64,000 nucleotides of DNA from Micromonospora rhizosphaerae (GTDB taxonomy: Bacteria; Actinomycetota; Actinomycetes; Mycobacteriales; Micromonosporaceae): NCBI RefSeq assembly GCF_900091465.1, contig NZ_FMHV01000002.1, positions 5,518,001-5,582,000 of the forward strand, read 5' to 3'. Shown here piece after piece: positions 5,909 through 16,796 of the stretch (the stretch's first letter is position 1; each line of letters begins with the position of its first letter). The notes beneath the pieces were generated by a model, which saw only the letters and a program-made list of their open reading frames with translations, was not told where the DNA came from and ran no database searches. The translations under genes and the position numbers were made by a program.

Positions 5909-6745
5909 ATGGGTCCGAAGCGGTGGCGGTCGAGCGCCGGCGGCGCCGTGCGGGCACTCATCCTCGTCGTGCTGTTCGGGGCATCGCTCTACCCGATCGC
6001 CTTCGTCGTAATTTCTTCTCTGAAGACGAAGTCGGCGTTCGCCACCAACTACTTCTTGCCCGATCGTCACGTGCACCTCGACAACTACCGCGCTGCGGCG
6101 GGTGAGGTGCTGCCCTCGGTCTGGAACTCGGTGCAGGTCAGCACGGCCACCGTCGCGCTCGTTCTGGCCTGTGGCGTGCCGGCGGCGTACGCGTTCGCCT
6201 GGCGTCGCTTCCGCGGCCAAAAGCTCATCTACACCGTCGCCATCTGCACGATGATGGTGCCGGCCGTGCTCACCTTCGTGCCGATGTTCGTGCTCGTCCG
6301 CGATCTCGGGCTCATCGACACGCAATGGGCCATGGTCCTGCCGTACACCGCGGGAACCGTTGGTCTGTCGGTCTTTCTGCTGCGCGCCTTCTTTCGCGCT
6401 GTCCCCCAGGAGCTGGTCGAGGCGGCGAAGCTCGACGGCTCCGGCGACCTGCGCGTGCTCTGGCACGTGGTGCTGCCGCTGAGTCTTCCGACACTGGCCA
6501 CCCTCGTCACGCTCAACGTGCTGTGGACGTGGAACCAGTTCCTGTGGCCGCTGGTGACGATCAGCTCCGAGGAGCAGCGCCCAGTGCCGGTGGCGCTCGC
6601 GTTCCTCACCGGCGATCGGTACAACGTGGACTACCCCCAGCTGATGGCCGGATACGTGCTCTCCGCCCTGCCGCTGGTCGTCGTGCTGACAATCACGATG
6701 CGGGCGTTCATTCGGGGCATGCTCTCCGGTGCGCTCAAGGCGTAG
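5909..6745 (+). CDS. Carbohydrate ABC transporter permease, MalG-like
   Basis: Second permease, 278 residues, with about six membrane segments and the EAA loop VEAAKLDGSGDLRVLWHVVLPL. GAAAGGAG just before the start at 5909 gives the ribosome site and overlaps the end of the partner gene. It pairs with the preceding MalF-like protein. The operon ends here and is followed by insertion-sequence debris, so downstream genes such as a glycosidase or ATPase may have been lost. Confidence 0.94.
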   Translation: MGPKRWRSSAGGAVRALILVVLFGASLYPIAFVVISSLKTKSAFATNYFLPDRHVHLDNYRAAAGEVLPSVWNSVQVSTATVALVLACGVPAAYAFAWRRFRGQKLIYTVAICTMMVPAVLTFVPMFVLVRDLGLIDTQWAMVLPYTAGTVGLSVFLLRAFFRAVPQELVEAAKLDGSGDLRVLWHVVLPLSLPTLATLVTLNVLWTWNQFLWPLVTISSEEQRPVPVALAFLTGDRYNVDYPQLMAGYVLSALPLVVVLTITMRAFIRGMLSGALKA

Positions 6746-6783
6746 TAGCACCCCAGCCCGCTGATCGACTCGACGTGGGCCTA

Positions 6784-6955
6784 TCACCTCATGGTCCATG
6801 ACGAAGGTCGACCCGGGCGCTTCGGCGCCGGCAGCAACGGCTGCAGCACCGCCCACTGCACGTCGGTCAGGTCGAACCGTCCTGTCACCGTTAGGGTTCC
6901 ACGAGGTCTCCGGTTCGGGTTCTGCTTGGTCGCTGAACCATCTACCGGAGACCTC
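6784..6955 (-). mobile_element. IS5-type insertion sequence remnant: transposase N-terminus and upstream hairpin
   Basis: Reading leftward from the GTG at 6888, a 34-residue peptide (FDLTDVQWAVLQPLLP then KRPGRPSSW) matches the N-terminus of IS5-family transposases and stops at 6784. Upstream, 6903-6914 and 6944-6955 form a perfect 12-bp inverted repeat, GAGGTCTCCGGT and ACCGGAGACCTC. The same arms and a similar loop precede the intact IS5-type transposase at 28477-28533. This is the relic of a related copy. Confidence 0.75.
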
Positions 6956-7039
6956 GCCATATGCCGATCTTCGACGCGCCGAACGGTCACTCCAGCTCGG
7001 GCCCACCGCCGACTCAACACAGGCCCTAGCATCGTCGGC

Positions 7040-7777
7040 ATGGCAACGCGGCTCGTTCAAATCAACATGAAGGCTCGGGACGACTCCGCGCTGGGCGGTT
7101 TCTGGGCGGAGGCGCTCGGCTGGGGAGTCTCCAGCGAGGGACCCGGCGTGACCAACCTCGAACCCGAGGGCTTCGTCTACCCCGACCCCGTCGCTGTCTG
7201 CCTTGACCTCATCGCCTCCCCGGAACCCAAGACGGTGAAGAACCGCGTGCACGTCGACCTCGCCACCACCTCGGCGGCCCATCAGGCGGAGGTGGTCACG
7301 CGCCTGAAGGATCTCGGCGCAACACTCGCCGACGTAGGCCAGGGCGACGTGCCATGGACGGTCATGGCCGACCCAGAGGGCAACGAGTTCTGCGTGCTGG
7401 ACCCCCGACCGCTCTACCGAGACACCGGACCGATCGCCGCGGTAGTGGTCGACTGCGCGGATCCGCGAGCCATGGCCCGCTTCTGGGGCAAGGCCATGGA
7501 CTGGACCCTGCACGAGGTGACCGACCACAACGCGGTACTGCGCTCCGCCAAGGGCATCGGCCCATATCTGCAGTTCCGCCGCACACCCGACGTGAAGACC
7601 GTGTGGAACCGCGTCCATCTCGACGTCCGCCCCTACCCGGGTGACGACCCGGAGGCCGAGGCGGCCAGACTGCGGACTCTCGGCGCCACCGCCATCGACC
7701 TAGGCCACAGCGATGTCCCGTGGACCGTCCTCGCCGACCCGGAAGGCAACGAGTTCTGCCTCCTCGCCCCAGGCTGA
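7040..7777 (+). CDS. Two-domain VOC (glyoxalase/bleomycin resistance-like) protein
   Basis: A 245-residue protein made of two tandem vicinal-oxygen-chelate modules. Each ends in the same signature, DVPWTVMADPEGNEFCVL in the first half and DVPWTVLADPEGNEFCLL in the second, carrying the Glu that usually takes part in metal binding. The start at 7040 is preferred because the open frame upstream lies in IS debris. Such proteins in actinomycetes are cytosolic and mostly of unknown substrate; some bind drugs or act on small oxidised metabolites. No partner gene is adjacent. Confidence 0.85.
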   Translation: MATRLVQINMKARDDSALGGFWAEALGWGVSSEGPGVTNLEPEGFVYPDPVAVCLDLIASPEPKTVKNRVHVDLATTSAAHQAEVVTRLKDLGATLADVGQGDVPWTVMADPEGNEFCVLDPRPLYRDTGPIAAVVVDCADPRAMARFWGKAMDWTLHEVTDHNAVLRSAKGIGPYLQFRRTPDVKTVWNRVHLDVRPYPGDDPEAEAARLRTLGATAIDLGHSDVPWTVLADPEGNEFCLLAPG

Positions 7778-7833
7778 CCCGAACCCTCGTCATCCGCGCA
7801 CTACGGCCACCAGCCCGGACTTTGCGACGCGCC

Positions 7834-7989
7834 CTAGTTGTACAGCCAGATGGCGGCACAGCCGAAACACAGCGCGAGCAGCACGGCCGAGGCGAGCAGC
7901 AGCACGAGCAGCGTGAGCAGTTTGCTGCGTGCCGTCGGCGCAGACGGCCCCGGCGGCGGACTGCCGTCGGTGGACTCGGGGTCGGGCAT
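7834..7989 (-). CDS. Small single-pass membrane protein, 51 residues
   Basis: The frame from ATG 7989 to TAG at 7834 encodes a hydrophilic Pro/Ser/Asp-rich head (MPDPESTDGSPPPGPSAP), a basic turn (ARSK), then one helix of about 23 hydrophobic residues (LLTLLVLLLASAVLLALCFG) and a short tail ending IWLYN. Topology by the positive-inside rule would put the N-terminus in the cytoplasm. It is convergent with the VOC gene, with 56 bp between the stops. No family is recognised and the function is unknown. Regular codon use and the clean membrane segment make it likely to be real. Confidence 0.6.
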   Translation of the reverse strand: MPDPESTDGSPPPGPSAPTARSKLLTLLVLLLASAVLLALCFGCAAIWLYN

Positions 7990-8259
7990 GTCGTGATCAT
8001 GTCAGACCCGCGGTTCCGTGGATCTAGACGGGAGCTCGTCAGGCGTAGCCTCGTCGCCGGCAGTGGCAGTTGCCGGCTTGGCATTGGCGTCGTCGGCGTC
8101 CTCACATCGGCTTCTTATCTACTGGTGCCACGACGGCAGCCCGGCCAGGCTAGGTCGAGGTGACCAGTTGAGGACATCGGCGGCTGACCAGCGCGACCAC
8201 GGACGCTGACGCGTTTTGGAGCTGCCGAAGAGGTCACCGAGTGGTCAGATCGGGAGCCG

Positions 8260-8547
8260 TCAGCCCGAGGTCGCTGGTCGATGCCCGTACCGTTCGGCGG
8301 CGCGCGCCTTGGCCTTTGCGGCCTCCACCTCGCGGTCACGGGGAGGCGCGTTCGTCACGAGGCTGTCCAGTAGGGTTCGGGTGGCCGCCGTGACAGCGCG
8401 GATCGCCTCGTCGAACGCCTCCGCGTTGGCTGCGGACGGCCGTGTCGTGCCGCTGACCTTGCGCACGTATTGGATGGCGGCGGCCTCGATCTCATCGTCG
8501 GTCGCAGGCGGTTCGAAGTTGTGGAGCACGCGAATGTTCCTGCACAT
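8260..8547 (-). CDS. DUF2277 family protein
   Basis: A 95-residue protein beginning MCRNIRVLHNFEPPATDDEI with the later block AAAIQYVRKVSG and DSLVTNAPPRDREVEAAKAK, the hallmark of DUF2277, a common actinobacterial family without known function. The start at 8547 matches the invariant MCRNI N-terminus. It is soluble with an acidic middle and basic end. It stands alone. Confidence 0.9.
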   Translation of the reverse strand: MCRNIRVLHNFEPPATDDEIEAAAIQYVRKVSGTTRPSAANAEAFDEAIRAVTAATRTLLDSLVTNAPPRDREVEAAKAKARAAERYGHRPATSG

Positions 8548-9992: not shown

Positions 9993-11651
9993 CTAGTCGG
10001 CGCGGGGAAGCGTGATGGTGAATGTCGTCCCGACGCCGACCTCACTCGCGACCCTGATGGTGCCCTGGTGATCGGTGACGATCTGCCGGGCGATGGCGAG
10101 GCCGAGGCCACTGCCCCCGGTACGGCGGCCCCGCGCGGCGTCGGCCCGCCAGAACCGGTCGAACACATGCGGCAGCGCGTCCGTTGCGATTCCCGAGCCG
10201 GTGTCGACGACCTGGACGATCGCCTGCGTTTCGGTGCGGCTCGCGACCAGCCGGACGCTGCCGCCCGCAGCGGTCGCCCGTAGTGCGTTGGTGACGAGAT
10301 TGCCCACCACCTGGCGGAGCCGGTCGGGATCGGCGTGTACCGCAACCGGCTCGGCCGCCACGCGCAACGACACCCCGGCTGACTCCGCCCGGGCGTGGTG
10401 GGCGGTGCGGCAGGTCTCCAGGAGCTCGGCCAGATCCACGGTGACCCGGTGGTACGCCAGGTTGCCGGCCTCAGCCAGGGCCAGGTCCTGCAGGTCGTCG
10501 ACGATGCGCTGTTGCAGCACCGCCTCCTCGTGGAGTGACGCGAAGAGATCCTGGTCCGGCGTGATCACGCCGTCGGAGAGCGCCTCGAGATAGCCGCGCA
10601 GGTTGGCCAGCGGGGTGCGCAGTTCGTGTGCGACGTCGGCGACCAGCCGGCGTTGCCGCTCCTCCCCGCGCTGCAGCGAGTCGGCCATCCGGTTGAACGA
10701 CCGGGCCAACTCCGCCAGCTCGTCGTTGCCCCGCACCGGAACCCGTCCGGTGAGGTCACCCCGGCCGAGCCGCTGAGCGGCCGCGGTGAGCGTGTCGATG
10801 GGCCGCAGCACTCGCCGGCTCAGCAGCGCGGTGCCGATGACCGCGACCGCCGCAACGCCCACTGCCGCGGCGAGCAGTGGACCGGCGGTCAACACGGACG
10901 CCGGATCGCCGCGAGCGCCGAGGTAGACCCGGGCGGGTACCGGCGCGACGTCACTGATCTCGTTGGTGAAGGCCCGGGCCAGGCAGGAATCCACTGGTTC
11001 CTCCGTCGAGGTGCCACAGACCTGCACCCGGGCAGCGCCGGCCGCCCGGTCCCGGCCCGGCTCGGCCGCGGCGTCGCGACAGCCGTCGACGATCTCGTCG
11101 ACGCCCCGGCGACCACGCCCGTCGGCCGCGCCCAGGTCGGCGTCGAACTGCGGAACTCCCGTGCTGGTGGTTGAAGCGACAACAGGGACGGATTCCCGGG
11201 TCAGGCATGCGGCGAACAGCACGCCCGTGCGGTAGGCGTTGATCGCAACGACCACGCCTTTCTCCCGGCCCGCCGGCTCCGCTGGCAATGCGGCCAGATT
11301 CAATACCGGCCGCGGGTCGACGAACCCGACCATCGTGCCGAGCGGCCGGGCGGTGCGGTTCTCCTGGGTGTCCGTGTCCACGATCACGTCGCCCGTGTCG
11401 GCGACCAGGTGGATCCGCTGACCGGTCTGGGTGCGCAGGTCCTGCACCAGGTCGGGCACGCCCTCCCAGGTGCCGTGCTGACTGCTGTACGTCCTGAGTC
11501 GGCCGACGACCTGGTCGAGTTGCGCCCGGTCGGTGGTGGCCGAGTCGTTGATCTGTTGCGAGGCCTGCCGCAGGGTCAGCCACGCGGTCGCCGCGGTCGC
11601 GCTCACCGCGACGAGGATGACCAGCCAGAGCACCCGTAGCCGAAAACTCAC
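9993..11651 (-). CDS. VanS/PhoR-like membrane sensor histidine kinase
   Basis: A 552-residue two-component sensor. A first membrane helix lies at about residues 5-25. An extracytoplasmic sensor domain of about 200 residues follows, with several cysteines (CLTRES, DGCRDA, VCGTST, DSCLARA). A second helix near 245-265 leads to a HAMP linker, the phosphoacceptor His in DVAHELRTPLANLRG and the ATPase domain (NLVTNALRATAAGG, DTGSGI, GSGLGLAIARQIV). GTG 11651 overlaps the regulator stop as GTGA, so the two are translationally coupled. It is divergent from a racemase/ligase/dipeptidase operon, which suggests cell-wall sensing. The ligand is unknown, and the sensor is larger than classic VanS. Confidence 0.93.
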   Translation of the reverse strand: MSFRLRVLWLVILVAVSATAATAWLTLRQASQQINDSATTDRAQLDQVVGRLRTYSSQHGTWEGVPDLVQDLRTQTGQRIHLVADTGDVIVDTDTQENRTARPLGTMVGFVDPRPVLNLAALPAEPAGREKGVVVAINAYRTGVLFAACLTRESVPVVASTTSTGVPQFDADLGAADGRGRRGVDEIVDGCRDAAAEPGRDRAAGAARVQVCGTSTEEPVDSCLARAFTNEISDVAPVPARVYLGARGDPASVLTAGPLLAAAVGVAAVAVIGTALLSRRVLRPIDTLTAAAQRLGRGDLTGRVPVRGNDELAELARSFNRMADSLQRGEERQRRLVADVAHELRTPLANLRGYLEALSDGVITPDQDLFASLHEEAVLQQRIVDDLQDLALAEAGNLAYHRVTVDLAELLETCRTAHHARAESAGVSLRVAAEPVAVHADPDRLRQVVGNLVTNALRATAAGGSVRLVASRTETQAIVQVVDTGSGIATDALPHVFDRFWRADAARGRRTGGSGLGLAIARQIVTDHQGTIRVASEVGVGTTFTITLPRAD

Positions 11652-12388
11652 CGGCTGGCTCCGGGCGTGCCCTCGGGCGTCGGCGTCGCCACCGGTTCCG
11701 GCTCCGGTTCGGCGAGCCGGTAGCCGCGGCCGTAGACGGTCTGCACGTACCGCGGCTCGGCAACGTCGTCCTCGATCTTGCGGCGGAGGTTCATCACGTG
11801 CGCATCGACGGTGCGTTCGAGCACGAAATGATCGAATCCGAAGGCCCGGTCGATGATCTGCGCTCGGGTGAACGCCCGCCCGGGCTCGCCGGCGAGCACC
11901 TCGAGGATGCCGAACTCCTTGGCCGTCAGGGCGACCGGCCGGCCGCCGACGCGTACCTCGAACCGGCCGGCGTCCACCTCGAGGTTGCCGACGCGCAGCA
12001 CCGCCCGGTTGTCGGCGTTCACCACCCGGGCCCGGCGCAGCAGCGCCCGTACCCGGGCGGCCAGCTCCCGCGGGCTGTACGGCTTGGTGAGGTAGTCGTC
12101 GGCACCGAGATCGAGGCCCAGCAGGACGTCGTCCTCGGTGGTACGGGCGGTCAGCAGCAGGATCGGGATGTCCGATTCGGCGCGCAGGATCCGGCACACG
12201 TCGAGGCCGTCGACGACCGGCATCATCACGTCGAGGACCACCAGGTCCGGCCGGCGGGACCGGCACTGGTCCAGCGCGGCCCGCCCGTCGCCGACCAGCA
12301 GCACGCTGTGCCCCTCGCGTTCGAGATAGACCCGTACCAGGTTGGCCTGCTTGGGGTCGTCCTCGGCGACCAGGATCCGCGCGCTCAT
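11648..12388 (-). CDS. OmpR/VanR-like response regulator
   Basis: A 246-residue regulator. The receiver domain (about 1-120) has the phosphorylation Asp in DLVVLDVMMPVVDGLD and the Lys in YLTKPYSPREL. A winged-helix output domain of OmpR type (about 140-230) contains RTVDAHVMNLRRKIEDD and YVQTVYGRGYRL. The start at 12388 follows GGGGAA, giving MSARILVAEDD. It is coupled to the downstream kinase and divergent from the cell-wall operon at 12569-16796, which it probably controls. Confidence 0.95.
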   Translation of the reverse strand: MSARILVAEDDPKQANLVRVYLEREGHSVLLVGDGRAALDQCRSRRPDLVVLDVMMPVVDGLDVCRILRAESDIPILLLTARTTEDDVLLGLDLGADDYLTKPYSPRELAARVRALLRRARVVNADNRAVLRVGNLEVDAGRFEVRVGGRPVALTAKEFGILEVLAGEPGRAFTRAQIIDRAFGFDHFVLERTVDAHVMNLRRKIEDDVAEPRYVQTVYGRGYRLAEPEPEPVATPTPEGTPGASR

Positions 12389-12568
12389 GTTTCCCCATTC
12401 TGCCTGGTGGTGGCGGGGGTCAAGTAAACCCGAAACCCGTGAAGAACTGATGTGGGCGGGCTCCGGAGAGCGGCGAGCGGGATATCCGCACAGCTGGCCC
12501 ACGGCGTCTTCAAGGGTTCTTCACAACAGGCTGCCTACCGTGCCCGTCATGGCAGTCAGGAGCCGGAC
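12389..12568. promoter_or_regulatory. Divergent promoter region of the van-like cluster
   Basis: This 180-bp gap separates the response regulator from the small first ORF of the cell-wall operon. It contains a 9-bp inverted repeat, GTGAAGAAC at 12439-12447 and GTTCTTCAC at 12516-12524, with 68 bp between the arms. Separated arms of this kind suit binding of regulator dimers at two promoters. AGGAG at 12558-12562 is the ribosome site for the next ORF. Confidence 0.45.
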
Positions 12569-12760
12569 ATGATCTTCGAACCAGCACACCCAGGCCGCCG
12601 CGATGAGCAGCGGCGGCGGGCGGTCCGGCGGCGGATCCGGGAGACGCTCGCGGTGCGCCGGGCCGCCGCGGTCGGCGGACACGGGGCCGCCGCGGTCGGC
12701 GGGCACGGGGCCGCCGAACCGCCGGATGAACCGCCCGTCGAACCCGGCGCTGCCGGGTGA
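12569..12760 (+). CDS. Small basic-to-acidic ORF with internal repeat, first gene of the van-like operon
   Basis: A 63-residue frame with AGGAG six bases before the ATG. The N-terminal half is strongly basic (GRRDEQRRRAVRRRIRET), the middle contains a twice-repeated AAAVGGHG-type unit, and the end is acidic and proline-rich. No known family. It may be a real small protein or a leader whose translation couples to the racemase gene 35 bp further on. Confidence 0.4.
   Translation: MIFEPAHPGRRDEQRRRAVRRRIRETLAVRRAAAVGGHGAAAVGGHGAAEPPDEPPVEPGAAG
12661..12708 (+). repeat. Two-copy 24-bp tandem repeat
   Basis: A 24-bp unit (GGCCGCCGCGGTCGGCG then GACACGG or GGCACGG) occurs twice in a row with one mismatch inside the small ORF. 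It keeps frame, adding eight residues per copy. Confidence 0.8.
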
Positions 12761-12795
12761 CGCCGGGTACGCGCGGTCGGCGCGCGGGGACCGGT

Positions 12796-13962
12796 GTGAC
12801 CAATGAGAGTGCCCAGCTGGCCGAGGCCGTGATCGATCTTGCGGCGATCGCGGAGAACATCCGGATGGTCGGGGCGATCGCACGTACCGGGTTGATGGCC
12901 GTGGTGAAGGCCGACGCGTTCGGGCACGGCGCGGTGCCGGTGGCGCGGGCCGCGTTGGGGGCCGGCGCCGACTGGCTGGGCGTGACCTCGGCGACGGAGG
13001 CGGTGGCACTGCGATCGGCGGGCATCGACGCGCCCGTCCTGAGCTGGCTGCACCGGCCGGACGAGGACTTCACCCGCCTGATCGCCGCGGACGTCGACAT
13101 CGCGGTGTCGACCCTGGCCCATCTGCGCGCGATCGCCAACGCGGCCGCGGATCTCGGTGTGCCCGCCGCGGTCCAACTCAAGGCGGACGTCGGTCTGTCC
13201 CGCAACGGTGCCGGCGGCGACGAATGGCCCGAACTGGTCGCCTGGGCTCGCAAGCACGAGGCGGAGGGCAGCGTCCGGGTACGCGGGGTGTGGTCCCACC
13301 TGACGAATGCCGACGTGCCGGGCTGCCCGAGCATCGCCCGGCAGCTGTCAACGTTCCGGGAGGCGCTGCGGATCGCCCGGGATGCCGGGCTCGACCCCGA
13401 AGTGATACATCTGGCCAATTCGGCGGCGGCACTGGCCGCCCCGCAGACCCGGTTCGATCTCTGCCGGATCGGCCTGGCCATGTACGGCGTCGACCCGTTC
13501 GGCGCGACCGGTCCCCGCCGCTACGGCCTGCGACCCGCCATGACCCTGCGGTCAAGGGTGATCAACCTGAAACGCGTGCCCGCCGGCACCGGCGTGTCCT
13601 ACGGCCCCGATCATGTGACCGATCGGCCGACCACGCTCGCTCTGCTGCCGCTCGGGTACGCCGATGGTCTGTCGCGCACCGCCGAGGGCCGCGCGTGGGT
13701 CTGGCTCGCCGGTCGACGATGCCCGATCGTCGGTCGCATCGCCATGGATCAGTGCGTCGTCGACGTCGGCGATCTACCGGTGACGCTCGGCGATCCCGTG
13801 GTTGTCTTCGGTGCCGGCGCCGAGCCGGGCTCGCTCGACCCGGCCGAGCCGACGGCCGCCGAATGGGCGCAGTGGGCCGGCACCAACCCGCACGAAGTCT
13901 TGACCGGAATCGGCGCGCGAGTTGCGCGCGTACACCTACACGGGGAAGCGGCAAGATCATGA
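12796..13962 (+). CDS. alr: Alanine racemase-type PLP enzyme
   Basis: A 388-residue fold-type III PLP enzyme converting L-Ala to D-Ala; a D-Ser product as in VanT cannot be excluded. The PLP lysine lies in MAVVKADAFGHGA, the catalytic Tyr region is GTGVSYGPDHVT, and LLPLGYADGLSR and VGRIAMDQCVVDVG are family blocks. The GTG at 12796 is preferred because GGGGA precedes it by five bases and the family N-terminus starts there. It lacks the membrane domain of enterococcal VanT. The stop overlaps the next start as ATGA, coupling racemase to ligase and so feeding D-amino acid into dipeptide synthesis. Confidence 0.92.
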   Translation: MTNESAQLAEAVIDLAAIAENIRMVGAIARTGLMAVVKADAFGHGAVPVARAALGAGADWLGVTSATEAVALRSAGIDAPVLSWLHRPDEDFTRLIAADVDIAVSTLAHLRAIANAAADLGVPAAVQLKADVGLSRNGAGGDEWPELVAWARKHEAEGSVRVRGVWSHLTNADVPGCPSIARQLSTFREALRIARDAGLDPEVIHLANSAAALAAPQTRFDLCRIGLAMYGVDPFGATGPRRYGLRPAMTLRSRVINLKRVPAGTGVSYGPDHVTDRPTTLALLPLGYADGLSRTAEGRAWVWLAGRRCPIVGRIAMDQCVVDVGDLPVTLGDPVVVFGAGAEPGSLDPAEPTAAEWAQWAGTNPHEVLTGIGARVARVHLHGEAARS

Positions 13963-14987
13963 CTGTTCGTTTGGCGGTGCTGTTCGGTGGGCGCAGCGGG
14001 GAGCACGACGTCTCCCGGCGCTCGGCGGAAAGCATCCTGGCCCACCTCGACCGCGACACCTACGACGTGACCGAGGTGCTGATCGAGCGGGACGGCCAGT
14101 GGCGGGTGAACGGCGACCGGGCCACGTTCGCGCAGGCGCTGCGGACCCTCGGCGAGCAGGACGTGGTGTTCCCGGCGCTGCACGGCCCGTACGGTGAGGA
14201 CGGCACCGTCCAGTCGATGCTGGAGTGGCTCGGCGTCGCGTTTGTCGGAAACGGTGTCTTCGCCAGCGCCGCGGGGATGGACAAGCCGGTCACAAAGAAA
14301 CTCCTCACCGCCGACGGCCTGCGCGTGGCCGACGGGGTGACGCTGCGGCCCGACGAGGAGCTGTCGTCGCGGGATCAGGAGCGGCTAGGGCTCCCCGTCT
14401 TCGTCAAACCGGCCCGGGCCGGCTCCAGCCTGGGGGTCTCCAAGGTCGAGCGGTGGGCGCAGCTGCCCGCCGCCCTGCGGCTCGCGCGCGAGAGCGACGC
14501 GAAGGTCCTCGTCGAGCGCGGGGTGCGCGGGCGCGAGATCGACGTCGCCGTCCTCGAGCACCCCGACGGCCACGTCGAGGCCGGGCCGCCGCTGGAGATA
14601 CGGGTGGCGAACGCCGCCTTCTTCGACTACGACGCCAAGTACGACGGCGGCGCCGTCTTCGACATCCCGGCTCAGCTCGACCCCGGCACCACCCGGCTGC
14701 TGAAGGACCGGGCCGTGCAGGCGTTCCACGCGCTCGGCTGCCGTGGGCTGCTCCGCGTCGACTTCTTCCTGCCGGATCCGGACGCCGAGCACGGCGACGG
14801 GTGGACCGGAGACTGCCGGGAGCCGGTGATCAACGAGGTCAACACCTTCCCCGGGTTCACCGCCGCCTCCCAGTACCCGCAGATCTGGCAGCGGGCCGGG
14901 ATCGGCTTCTCGGCGCTGCTCGACATCCTGATCGAGGGCGCGCTGCAGCGGCGCGACGCCGTCTCCCCCTCTCCGGCGCCCTGCTGA
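13959..14987 (+). CDS. ddl: D-alanine-D-alanine ligase family enzyme, specificity uncertain
   Basis: A 342-residue ATP-grasp ligase making a D-Ala-D-X dipeptide for peptidoglycan stems. Visible blocks are VLFGGRSGEHDVS (N-terminus), FPALHGPYGEDG, PVFVKPARAGSSLGVSKV (nucleotide loop) and NEVNTFPGFTAASQYP. The omega loop reads FFDYDAKYDGG and keeps the Lys-Tyr of D-Ala-D-Ala ligases. In the final block Gln occupies the place of Leu or Met in ordinary Ddl and Arg in VanA and VanC, so the acceptor could be D-Ala or D-Ser. It is coupled on both sides (ATGA with alr, TGATG with murG). As a second ligase beside a VanRS-type pair it may serve in antibiotic tolerance. Confidence 0.88.
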   Translation: MTVRLAVLFGGRSGEHDVSRRSAESILAHLDRDTYDVTEVLIERDGQWRVNGDRATFAQALRTLGEQDVVFPALHGPYGEDGTVQSMLEWLGVAFVGNGVFASAAGMDKPVTKKLLTADGLRVADGVTLRPDEELSSRDQERLGLPVFVKPARAGSSLGVSKVERWAQLPAALRLARESDAKVLVERGVRGREIDVAVLEHPDGHVEAGPPLEIRVANAAFFDYDAKYDGGAVFDIPAQLDPGTTRLLKDRAVQAFHALGCRGLLRVDFFLPDPDAEHGDGWTGDCREPVINEVNTFPGFTAASQYPQIWQRAGIGFSALLDILIEGALQRRDAVSPSPAPC

Positions 14988-16155
14988 TGGCCGTCTACAC
15001 CGCCGAACATCTCCGCAGCATTCGCGTCATCGTCACCGGCGGGGCGGGCACACCTACCCGGCGCTGACCACGATCCGTACGCTCCGCGACCGACTGGCGA
15101 CGGCCCGCACCGCACCGGACGTCCGCTGGGTGGGCGTCGCCCACGGACTGGAGGCCAGCATCGCCCGGCAGGAAGGCATCCCCTTCACGGCGATCACCAC
15201 CGGCAAACTGCGCCGATCGCCGAACCTGCACGAGTGGGGCCGCAACGTCGCCGACGCCTTCCGCGTGCCACTCGGCATCTTCCAGGCCATCATGATCGTG
15301 GTGCGCAGCCGGCCCGAGGTGGTCTTCTCCACCGGCGGATACGTCTCCGTCCCGATCGGGATCGCCGCCTGGATGACCCGCCGCCCGCTGGTCATGCACG
15401 AGCAGATCCTCACGCTCGGGCTGGCGAACCGGATCCTCGCCCGCCTGGCCGATCGAGTCCTGCTCAGCCACGAATCCTCCATCGACCATCTGCCCGCCCG
15501 AGCGAAAGCCCGCGCGGTGGTCACCGGCAACCCGATCCGGCCCGAGATCCTCAGCGGCAACCGCGACCGGGCGCTCGCCGCATACCACCTGGATCCCCGC
15601 CTGCCGCTGGTATACGTCACCGGCGGCGCCCAGGGCGCCGTCCAGGTCAACAACCTGATCGCCGACATCCTCCCCGGACTCCTGCAGAAATGTCAGGTGC
15701 TGCACCAGTGCGGCGACTACTCCCTCGACCGGATGCGGCAGGTCGCCGACGCCCTCCCGGAACACCTACGCAGCAGGTACCGGGTCGTCGACTACGTGCA
15801 CGGCGAGCTGCCCGACGTCCCGAGCGCCGCGGACATCGTCGTCGCGCGCAGCGGCGCCGGCACCGTCGCCGAACTCACCGCCCTGGGCAAGGCATGCGTC
15901 TTCATCCCGCTCATCCCCACCGGCGGCGACGAACAACGACGGACCGCACGGCACCTCGCCGACGCCGGTGCCTCCCGCATGCTCGCCGGCCCCGACGCCT
16001 CCGCCAACCGCCTCTACGAGGAGATCATGGTGCTGCTCGACCACCCGGAGCGACGCCGGGAGCTGGCCAACGCCGCCCGTCAACACGGCCGGCCCCATGC
16101 GGCCACGGCCGTGGCCAGCGCGATCATCGACGCCGCCGGCCGGTACCGGTCATGA
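14987..16155 (+). pseudogene. murG: MurG-like UDP-GlcNAc glycosyltransferase with N-terminal frameshift
   Basis: MurG makes lipid II from lipid I at the inner membrane face. The start at 14987 overlaps the ligase stop and encodes VIVTGG; the frame then breaks in the G-rich tract 15038-15050 and resumes in another frame as GGHTYPALTTIRTLRDRL, continuing to 16155. The later blocks are good: TGGYVSVPIGIAAWM, HEQILTLGLANRILARLADR, VARSGAGTVAELTALGKACV. The lost phase lies inside the glycine-rich substrate loop, so the gene is dead unless frameshifted or wrongly read. An internal ATG at 15130 could make only a shortened protein. The stop overlaps the VanX start. Confidence 0.82.
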
Positions 16156-16796
16156 TCCTGCTGTCTGATCGGCGAATCTCGGCCCTCCCGCTCGGCGACA
16201 ACGGGGAAGCCCTGGTCGACATACGCCAGGTTGCGGAACTTCGGGTTGACGATCGCCTGGCCGACGAGGCCGGGGCCTACGCACACCTACGCGAGGCAAC
16301 GGTCCAGCGCTTGCTCGCCGCCCAGCGGACCCTGCCCCGGGGGCTGCGGCTGCTGATCATCGAGGGGTACCGGCCACTCAGCCTGCAAACGACCTACTTC
16401 GAGAGCTACCAGGCCGAACTGCGCCGCAGGTACCCGGACTGGGACTCGGCGCGCCGGCACGTGGAGGCCAGCAAGTACATCTCGCCGCCCGAGGTGGCTC
16501 CACACAGTACCGGCGGGACGGTCGACCTCACGCTCTGTACGGCCGACGGGCTCGAACTGGACCTGGGCACGATCGTCAACGCCAGCCCGGTGGACAGCGC
16601 CAACGCCTGCTTCACCGGATCACCCGACATCTCCCCGCAGGCGCGCACCAATCGCGGCATCCTGGGCCAGGCGCTGTCGTCTGCCGGCATGGTCAACTAC
16701 CCGACCGAATGGTGGCACTGGTCGTTCGGCGACCGCTACTGGGCGTTGAGCACCGGGGCCGCCCGGACCCGGTACGGGCCAGTGGATCTGCCGTGA
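16152..16796 (+). CDS. vanX: VanX-type D-Ala-D-Ala dipeptidase (M15D)
   Basis: A 214-residue zinc peptidase of the VanX family, which hydrolyses free D-Ala-D-Ala in the cytoplasm so that the altered dipeptide is used. Zinc ligands are visible: His and Asp in APHSTGGTVDLTL (SxHxxGxxxD type) and the Glu-His pair in YPTEWWHWSFGD; EGYRPLSLQ carries the transition-state Arg. There is no signal peptide. It is the last gene of an operon with racemase and ligase-type enzymes, coupled by ATGA to the MurG frame. This combination is what D-Ala-D-Ser or D-Ala-D-Lac resistance operons need, but no VanH-type lactate dehydrogenase is present. Confidence 0.9.
   Translation: MILLSDRRISALPLGDNGEALVDIRQVAELRVDDRLADEAGAYAHLREATVQRLLAAQRTLPRGLRLLIIEGYRPLSLQTTYFESYQAELRRRYPDWDSARRHVEASKYISPPEVAPHSTGGTVDLTLCTADGLELDLGTIVNASPVDSANACFTGSPDISPQARTNRGILGQALSSAGMVNYPTEWWHWSFGDRYWALSTGAARTRYGPVDLP

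Follow-up and report, generated by a model that had tools for sequence, protein, structure and literature searches.

A second racemase and ligase pair in Micromonospora rhizosphaerae, predicted to form an accessory peptidoglycan-terminus module

Which wall dipeptide is made by a second alanine-racemase-type enzyme (Alr) and a second ligase of the Ddl family that lie together beside a two-component pair and a VanX-like peptidase? A six-gene locus of Micromonospora rhizosphaerae raises this question. It lies in a window of 64,000 nt (the whole stretch of DNA that we analyzed; contig NZ_FMHV01000002.1, positions 5518001-5582000) of a genome of 7.18 Mb in three contigs. An initial annotation had described a Van-like cassette of two-component pair, racemase, ligase, MurG paralogue and VanX-type dipeptidase; the content and order of the six genes stood as described, and the observation as a whole was partly confirmed. 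Our results suggest that the locus serves Micromonospora as an accessory peptidoglycan-terminus module, which would make D-Ala-D-X, most likely D-Ala-D-Ser (probability of roughly 0.55).

We found a full alr (C2:33306-34421, adjoining YjeF), a full ddl (C2:2289754-2290854) and a full murG (C2:6188636, grouped with FtsW and a Mur ligase) elsewhere in the genome. The enzymes of the locus are therefore additional copies, as had been supposed, and the contrary case that the initial annotation had named, in which they would be the only alr, ddl and murG genes, is ruled out. The cassette lacks VanH and holds a soluble Alr where D-Ala-D-Ser operons have the membrane protein VanT (209 bits for the vanT-G-Cterm model, cut-off 460); both points had been recognized before. 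The genome also contains a third Ddl-like ATP-grasp protein (L151, motif TETSLLP; C2:868205-869137), directly after a class I/II aminotransferase, and an L-type ligase of this kind was present in 8/12 genomes of one PF07478 scan set. Two alr-like sequence pieces were located at C2:7121094-7121727 (L149) and C2:5262480-5262746 (L153); the former, which may be what is left of a second module, lies next to an M23 peptidase and a further response regulator/kinase pair.

The module ligase differs from housekeeping Ddl at the variable position of the SxYP motif. Among 64 distinct ligase stretches, we observed Gln in 52, Met in seven, Arg in two, Pro in two and Leu in one. The seven Met ligases are the housekeeping enzyme of the same genome and six ligases of pdx-type loci (beside a VanX-like gene of 64-75% identity and without Alr); the two Arg ligases are VanA-type. 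Module ligases read at their loci presented Gln in 52/52 cases, and the housekeeping Ddl used as a control presented Met at all 30 loci with DNA (of 50 listed). The best 120 database homologues of the module ligase all have Gln (119 by motif and one as SQLP). Arg stands at this position in the VanA structures 3se7 and 1e4e and in structure 4fu0 (named D-alanine--D-alanine ligase 7 in the PDB), which we take to be VanG. The SxYP residue reportedly shapes the second substrate site, which is said to follow from VanC2 work with data on Phe250 and Arg322. In a tree of 77 ligase rows, for which the program flagged long branches, a 99/99 branch split off nine rows (the housekeeping enzyme of the same genome, VanA-like and Met-type pdx ligases) from the Gln ligases, which were joined by the L-type row and two degenerate rows.

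The partner racemase is altered at the site of Tyr354 of Bacillus Alr, a residue described as confining Alr to alanine and as replaced by Asn in VanT (PMC3485190). We compared 53 distinct racemase stretches, each of at least 200 aligned residues. The 52 module racemases present His (44), Asn (7) or Ser (1) and never Tyr, and the single Tyr belongs to the housekeeping Alr of the same genome. Housekeeping Alr used as a control presented 29 Tyr and one Trp (30 loci with DNA, of 57 matches listed). With its His, the window racemase shows the replacement at this site that characterizes D-Ala-D-Ser operons; of the seven Asn racemases, six come from genomes of genus g18 and one from Micromonospora sp. 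MW-13. Enzymes of T. tengcongensis are also reported to have Gln or His here, and the Gln enzyme racemizes L-Ser with 28% relative activity; changing its Gln to Tyr lowered the use of L-Ser and raised overall activity, so the loss of Tyr would loosen specificity rather than switch it (PMC4517790). The changes in racemase and ligase, together with AT3 neighbors in some relatives, strengthen the view of the pair as D-Ala-D-Ser-like in its logic, in line with the comparison drawn originally.

To define the distribution of the pair, 150 Micromonosporaceae genomes were surveyed for the ligase of the module (E <= 1e-85) and for its racemase (E <= 1e-108). The ligase was found in 56 genomes (58 loci) and the racemase in 45 (47 loci). 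A listed racemase lies within 6 kb at 44/58 ligase loci and a ligase at 44/47 racemase loci, and tblastn placed a racemase next to 27 of the 29 ligases at loci with DNA (L176-L204; the exceptions are L197 and L203, contig edge). This pairing is not due to chance. The Alr-Ddl pair is the core of the module and is present in about one third of the sampled genomes. The closest named relatives of the module are Micromonospora species. AT3 (PF01757), described as the family of the N-terminal membrane half of VanT (PMC9558356), was seen in 2/30 racemase-centred loci (three queries) and is thus a recurrent minority partner. It adjoins Alr-Ddl in five genomes (G065, G032, Micromonospora sp. MW-13 [L036, a partial match], Catenuloplanes japonicus [L029/L167] and G111) and directly precedes the VanX-like gene in 4/6 genomes of g18 (L113, L117, L118 and L120; not L115 or L119). 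Pfam confirmed AT3 for L162, L167 and L243.

We further scanned 24 genomes with PF07478 (E <= 1e-20); these were chosen partly for a missing housekeeping Ddl, and seven belong to genus g44. The Gln ligase was the only match in four g44 genomes (G064, G081, G106 and G122), so it can apparently carry the wall alone. In the remaining three, we found the Gln ligase with a degenerate housekeeping-type Ddl (G095; L349, motif PAFEPGAPFP), the Gln ligase with a degenerate housekeeping-type Ddl (L328) and a VanA-like ligase (G044), and a VanA-like ligase with a weak relative (G115). None of the seven g44 genomes contained a Met-type ligase or a strong VanX-like match. Of the five genomes of g6 (Catenuloplanes-type), four pair the Gln type with an L-type ATP-grasp, and in the fifth the L type accompanies a VanA-like ligase. 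Housekeeping Ddl decays beside the Gln ligase, as it does beside VanA-like ligases.

The peptidase of the locus scored 40.5 bits against the curated VanX model (cut-off 320) and 55.5 bits against Pfam M15 (cut-off 27). Alignment with VanX (1r44) indicates that the GYRP, HSxGxxxD (HSTGGTVD here) and EWWH motifs are retained. Its structure was predicted from 12 sequences with middling confidence (mean predicted local distance difference test [pLDDT] 70.4; predicted template modeling score 0.73). The only fold match at E <= 0.001 was 1r44 (E 3.9e-8; template modeling scores 0.54/0.57; root mean square deviation 7.4; 23% identity), and LdcB, VanY and VanXY ranked below it (E 0.002-0.09; VanY and VanXY 0.004-0.09). 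On this model of mean pLDDT 70, the fold is VanX-like rather than that of VanY or VanXY. This best match and the retained motifs support a putative VanX-like D,D-dipeptidase, which is a distant relative of VanX. The VanX-type designation of the initial annotation thus holds for fold and motifs and is not supported for membership of the VanX family. At the level of genomes, the ligase was present in 40/58 genomes with a VanX-like gene anywhere (Fisher test, P = 2e-10) and in 17/21 with the MurG paralogue, hereafter MurG2 (P = 1.5e-5), both uncorrected for kinship. Among housekeeping-Ddl genomes of the first 61, a VanX-like gene was found in 14/17 with the Gln ligase and 8/33 without it (P = 1.8e-4, kinship uncorrected). 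This distribution, like the g44 genomes without strong VanX-like matches, fits a dipeptidase that is needed only when D-Ala-D-Ala is also made.

We propose that the racemase, in which His, Asn or Ser replaces Tyr354, is relaxed or serine-directed and that, together with it, the Gln-SxYP ligase would use an altered second-site specificity to make D-Ala-D-X, most likely D-Ala-D-Ser. MurF would add this dipeptide to the stem peptide, and the VanX-like dipeptidase would clear the D-Ala-D-Ala made by housekeeping Ddl. The divergent two-component pair probably acts on the operon through a TCTTCA direct repeat. MurG2 might aid the flux of altered precursors at the lipid I step, its copy being broken in this strain.

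The strongest competing explanation is that both module enzymes, the Gln ligase and its partner racemase, are of the ordinary D-Ala-D-Ala type and form a second copy, induced by stress, that maintains the supply of D-Ala-D-Ala, the residue changes being neutral lineage markers. The ligase indeed passes the D-Ala-D-Ala ligase models and retains the AKY motif of the omega-loop, and the sole-ligase genomes show that it makes some working wall dipeptide. However, all module ligases that were read differ from all housekeeping ones at SxYP, no partner racemase read has the specificity Tyr, and a neighboring D-Ala-D-Ala dipeptidase would be counter-productive, which leaves this explanation unlikely, if still a serious contender. 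A third reading keeps D-Ala-D-X with X neither Ser nor Ala (e.g., Asn, Thr, Gly or some D-amino acid from a different pathway). It draws on a Gln distinct from Met as well as from Arg and on PALP, which replaces Alr in some Gln-ligase modules (L070/L172 and L165) and whose best models, hydroxyaspartate and threonine ammonia-lyases, all score below cut-off; the Asn of some module racemases and the presence of AT3 as a partner are shared with the serine racemase VanT and make such an X improbable. Equally improbable is D-cycloserine resistance through a spare, less sensitive Alr and Ddl, since it leaves the VanX-like gene, AT3, MurG2 and the PALP partners unexplained, the Gln ligase is the sole ligase in four genomes, and the Alr structure 1vfh, presumably from a D-cycloserine producer, keeps Tyr in the alignment, even though both drug targets lie within one apparently regulated operon. 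Extra ddl genes are reported to be able to confer D-cycloserine resistance (PMC7691350). The initial annotation had drawn attention to lipid I-binding antibiotics and to D-cycloserine; our findings point in particular to neither.

Several observations weigh against an accessory D-Ala-D-Ser module. The module ligase falls below the NCBIfam D-Ala-D-Ser ligase models (194 bits for D_ala_D_ser, cut-off 520; 246 bits for VanG, cut-off 495), as does the racemase for VanT, and homology does not directly imply D-Ser because Gln differs from the Arg of VanG. A racemase without Tyr can remain mainly an alanine racemase, as indicated by the activity that the thermophile enzyme gained from the change of Gln to Tyr (PMC4517790). 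The Catenuloplanes-type module Alr (L166 and L167; genus g6) retains the pyridoxal phosphate Lys motif and a His at the Tyr354 site and lacks the GVSYG loop that carries the catalytic Tyr265; it may not be an ordinary racemase, and the same would then hold for part of the family. Only 9/58 ligase loci have a VanX-like gene within 6 kb, so the genome-level association, itself uncorrected for kinship, includes copies in pdx-type and other loci. Seven genomes of g32 have the Gln ligase without a strong VanX-like match, of which two (G032 and G058) have a housekeeping Ddl; these genomes also speak against a dipeptidase whose need is tied to D-Ala-D-Ala synthesis. MurG2 is mostly located away from the module ligase, and lesions in 4/6 operons of the window clade (window included) suggest weak selection on the accessory genes. 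The ratios of nonsynonymous to synonymous substitutions (dN/dS) of the four enzymes, about 0.2-0.3, support the module. Its features are collected in Table 1.

Table 1. Genes and sites of the locus, numbered from the first position of the window.
Feature	Position	Strand	Basis
Sensor histidine kinase, 552 amino acids	9993..11651	-	Pfam HAMP, HisKA, HATPase; hydropathy
OmpR/PhoB-type response regulator, 255 amino acids	11648..12415	-	Pfam Response_reg and Trans_reg_C
Candidate regulator site TCTTCA-N5-TCTTCA, 11-bp period	12507..12523	+	Direct repeat, divergent spacer
Alanine-racemase-type enzyme (Alr), start uncertain	12805..13962	+	TIGR00492, 267.7 bits (cut-off 168)
His codon at BsAlr Tyr354 position (TNPHEV)	13891..13893	+	Residue alignment
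D-Ala-D-X ligase, Ddl family, Gln at SxYP	13959..14987	+	TIGR01205 and NF002528 above cut-off
Gln codon in SQYP (housekeeping Ddl Met; VanA/VanG Arg)	14871..14873	+	Residue alignment
MurG paralogue (MurG2), frame broken at ~15035-15043	14987..16155	+	GT28 N and C domains; comparison with relatives
VanX-like M15 D,D-dipeptidase (predicted), 214 amino acids	16152..16796	+	Pfam Peptidase_M15; metal-site motifs

The kinase and regulator genes diverge from alr, ddl, murG2 and the vanX-like gene. These four, with overlapping stops and starts at alr/ddl, ddl/murG2 and murG2/vanX-like, look like one operon. In the kinase, two transmembrane-like segments (~1-28 and 251-282) flank a domain of ~220 amino acids and are followed by the HAMP, HisKA and HATPase domains. 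The two regulators had been named VanR and VanS, a family membership that is not supported by their scores, which are far below the cut-offs of the curated models (respectively, 168.5 bits for 350 and 128.8 bits for 400). They are a generic OmpR-type regulator and HisKA kinase; the best NCBIfam model of the kinase is BaeS/MtrB-like, and all 25 models listed are below cut-off. The repeat in the divergent spacer (389 bp) is the sole match in the 64-kb window with one mismatch allowed (0.05 expected), and the window and 5/5 aligned relatives share both hexamers while the letters between them vary. An 11-bp period suits OmpR/PhoB-type regulators. We observed regulator pairs near Alr-Ddl in 5/10 further loci (L234, L235, L237, L239 and L240); their kinases match in the core only, so these pairs may have been separately recruited. 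Upstream of alr, a 24-bp unit (window 12663-12710) is duplicated in the window relative to all five relatives. No sigma-70 promoter or terminator was found near alr, and no Rfam element reached its gathering score. The inspected neighbors, a DUF427 protein upstream and what we take to be transhydrogenase-like genes downstream, do not suggest an antibiotic gene cluster as the source of the locus, no dedicated cluster search having been made.

The murG2 gene starts with the ATG at 14987, which overlaps the ddl stop, and reaches a stop after 26 residues. A second frame takes over at GGHTYPAL (~15043), and the glycine loop GGGTGGHTYPAL is split. The open reading frame (ORF) from 15130 lacks ~50 N-terminal residues that relatives have, GGGTGGHTYPAL included; the loop is whole in 8/8 relatives compared (L017, L018, L019, L020, L021, L156, L157 and L158). 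The break is either a real frameshift or an assembly error; if real, it would be recent, since the remaining gene looks constrained (median dN/dS 0.275 across 15 pairs, window pairs included; crude NG86 estimate). The MurG2 of the window is probably non-functional, and it does not combine the intact glycine loop and dcw location of a housekeeping MurG. The initial annotation correctly reported an added MurG paralogue and overlooked its broken frame. Its treatment of MurG as a working and defining part is not borne out: MurG2 lies within 6 kb of 11/58 ligase loci (at six together with a VanX-like gene), which rules it out as a fixed member of the module. We inspected the best 80 (named) of 175 MurG2 loci, with up to 9 kb of DNA per side (less on some shorter contigs): a ligase was near in 12, and 68 had none in the DNA inspected, about two thirds of these in Nonomuraea and other Streptosporangiaceae. 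MurG2 adjoins Alr-Ddl-VanX-like in the window clade, L021, G068 and G010; PALP-DdlQ-VanX-like in L165 and in the single genome of L070/L172, where an oligopeptide ABC transporter is also present; VanH-VanA in L047 and L055; and MurF-DdlQ-Alr in L058/L173 (one genome; MurF at 355.6 bits for TIGR01143, cut-off 288.6). A MurG2 relative (57-69% identity) without a ligase in the DNA inspected was also seen in Salinispora (L024-L028) and at many Nonomuraea loci. In L047, a single ORF (6286-8409, - strand) reads as two halves, the first Ddl-like and degenerate and the second a VanH dehydrogenase (Pfam, NCBIfam); it is either a fusion or a run-through and adjoins VanA and MurG2.

We compared the window with five close relatives (L017, L018, L019, L020 and L156). 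L017 carries an IS605/OrfB-type insertion between alr and ddl, the vanX-like gene has lost its metal site through an internal deletion in L018 and is almost gone in L019, and the operons of L020 and L156 are whole. All six retain open alr and ddl frames. The median dN/dS (crude NG86 estimates) was 0.267 for Alr, 0.28 for Ddl, 0.203 for the VanX-like gene (10 pairs), 0.337 for the response regulator and 0.547 for the kinase. In the window clade, decay affects the two accessory genes, murG2 and the vanX-like gene. Overall, the earlier interpretation is upheld for the extra copies, the absence of VanH and the D-Ala-D-Ser-like logic, and is given up for the VanR, VanS and VanX family names and for MurG.

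If D-Ala-D-Ser is made, the D-Ser-type remodeling known from enterococci would be old and common in soil actinobacteria, and D-Ser termini would perhaps be normal wall chemistry in some lineages. This would bear on the origin of D-Ser-type glycopeptide resistance and leads to the prediction of an intrinsic tolerance of glycopeptides. The sole-ligase genomes reduce the question to one stem-peptide measurement, and the recurrence of MurG2 beside several kinds of terminus modules opens the puzzling association of MurG with van genes to direct testing.

A study published in 2021 surveyed Actinobacteria for van-like genes and reports the pdx operon from Micromonosporales, loci of racemase, Ddl, VanY and VanRS from other orders, and a murG gene that follows some vanHAX operons; the text of its Micromonosporales section, supplementary tables aside, does not mention the Alr-Ddl pair (PMC8698665). 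Our literature search, with most subscription journals outside its reach, found no published account of an Alr(His/Asn)-Ddl(Gln) pair. The locus may belong to a large and seemingly undescribed class of D-Ala-D-X (probably D-Ala-D-Ser) ligase-racemase pairs that about one third of Micromonosporaceae possess natively. Some would perhaps induce the pair and others would rely on its ligase as the sole wall ligase, such that whole lineages may build walls without D-Ala-D-Ala, and the recurring MurG paralogue would be a shared companion of D-Ser-like, PALP-type and D-Lac modules; we see the case for this broader proposal as evenly balanced.

Among known systems, the vanC, vanE and vanG operons for D-Ala-D-Ser consist of VanT, a VanC/G ligase, VanXY and VanRS (PMC7325946). 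The module resembles them in its racemase, ligase, D,D-peptidase and two-component pair, in the Asn that some of its racemases share with VanT, and in the separate AT3 gene beside the racemase of some relatives, as if VanT were cut in two. It differs in its soluble racemase, its Gln instead of Arg, its VanX-like instead of VanXY peptidase, regulators below the VanRS cut-offs and the MurG paralogue. The racemase, Ddl, VanY and VanRS loci of Allonocardiopsis, Murinocardiopsis and Geodermatophilales likewise have regulators and an M15 peptidase beside a racemase-Ddl pair, but belong to other orders and have a VanY carboxypeptidase rather than a VanX-like enzyme (PMC8698665). vanO and other vanHAX loci with murG share the MurG paralogue beside a remodeling set, but are of the D-Ala-D-Lac type with VanH (PMC8698665, PMC9689679). 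The pdx operon is described as comprising a PALP enzyme similar to serine/threonine dehydratases, a Ddl-like ligase, a VanX-like dipeptidase and a VanRS-like pair, and its authors also proposed D-Ala-D-Ser-like remodeling (PMC8698665). The module shares with it the family of VanX-like peptidase, a ligase of the Ddl family, a pyridoxal phosphate enzyme and a two-component pair; in contrast to pdx, it has an Alr-fold racemase in the place of PALP, a Gln-type ligase and an added MurG2. A few relatives (L070/L172 and L165) are of a mixed type and combine PALP, the Gln ligase, the VanX-like gene and MurG2.

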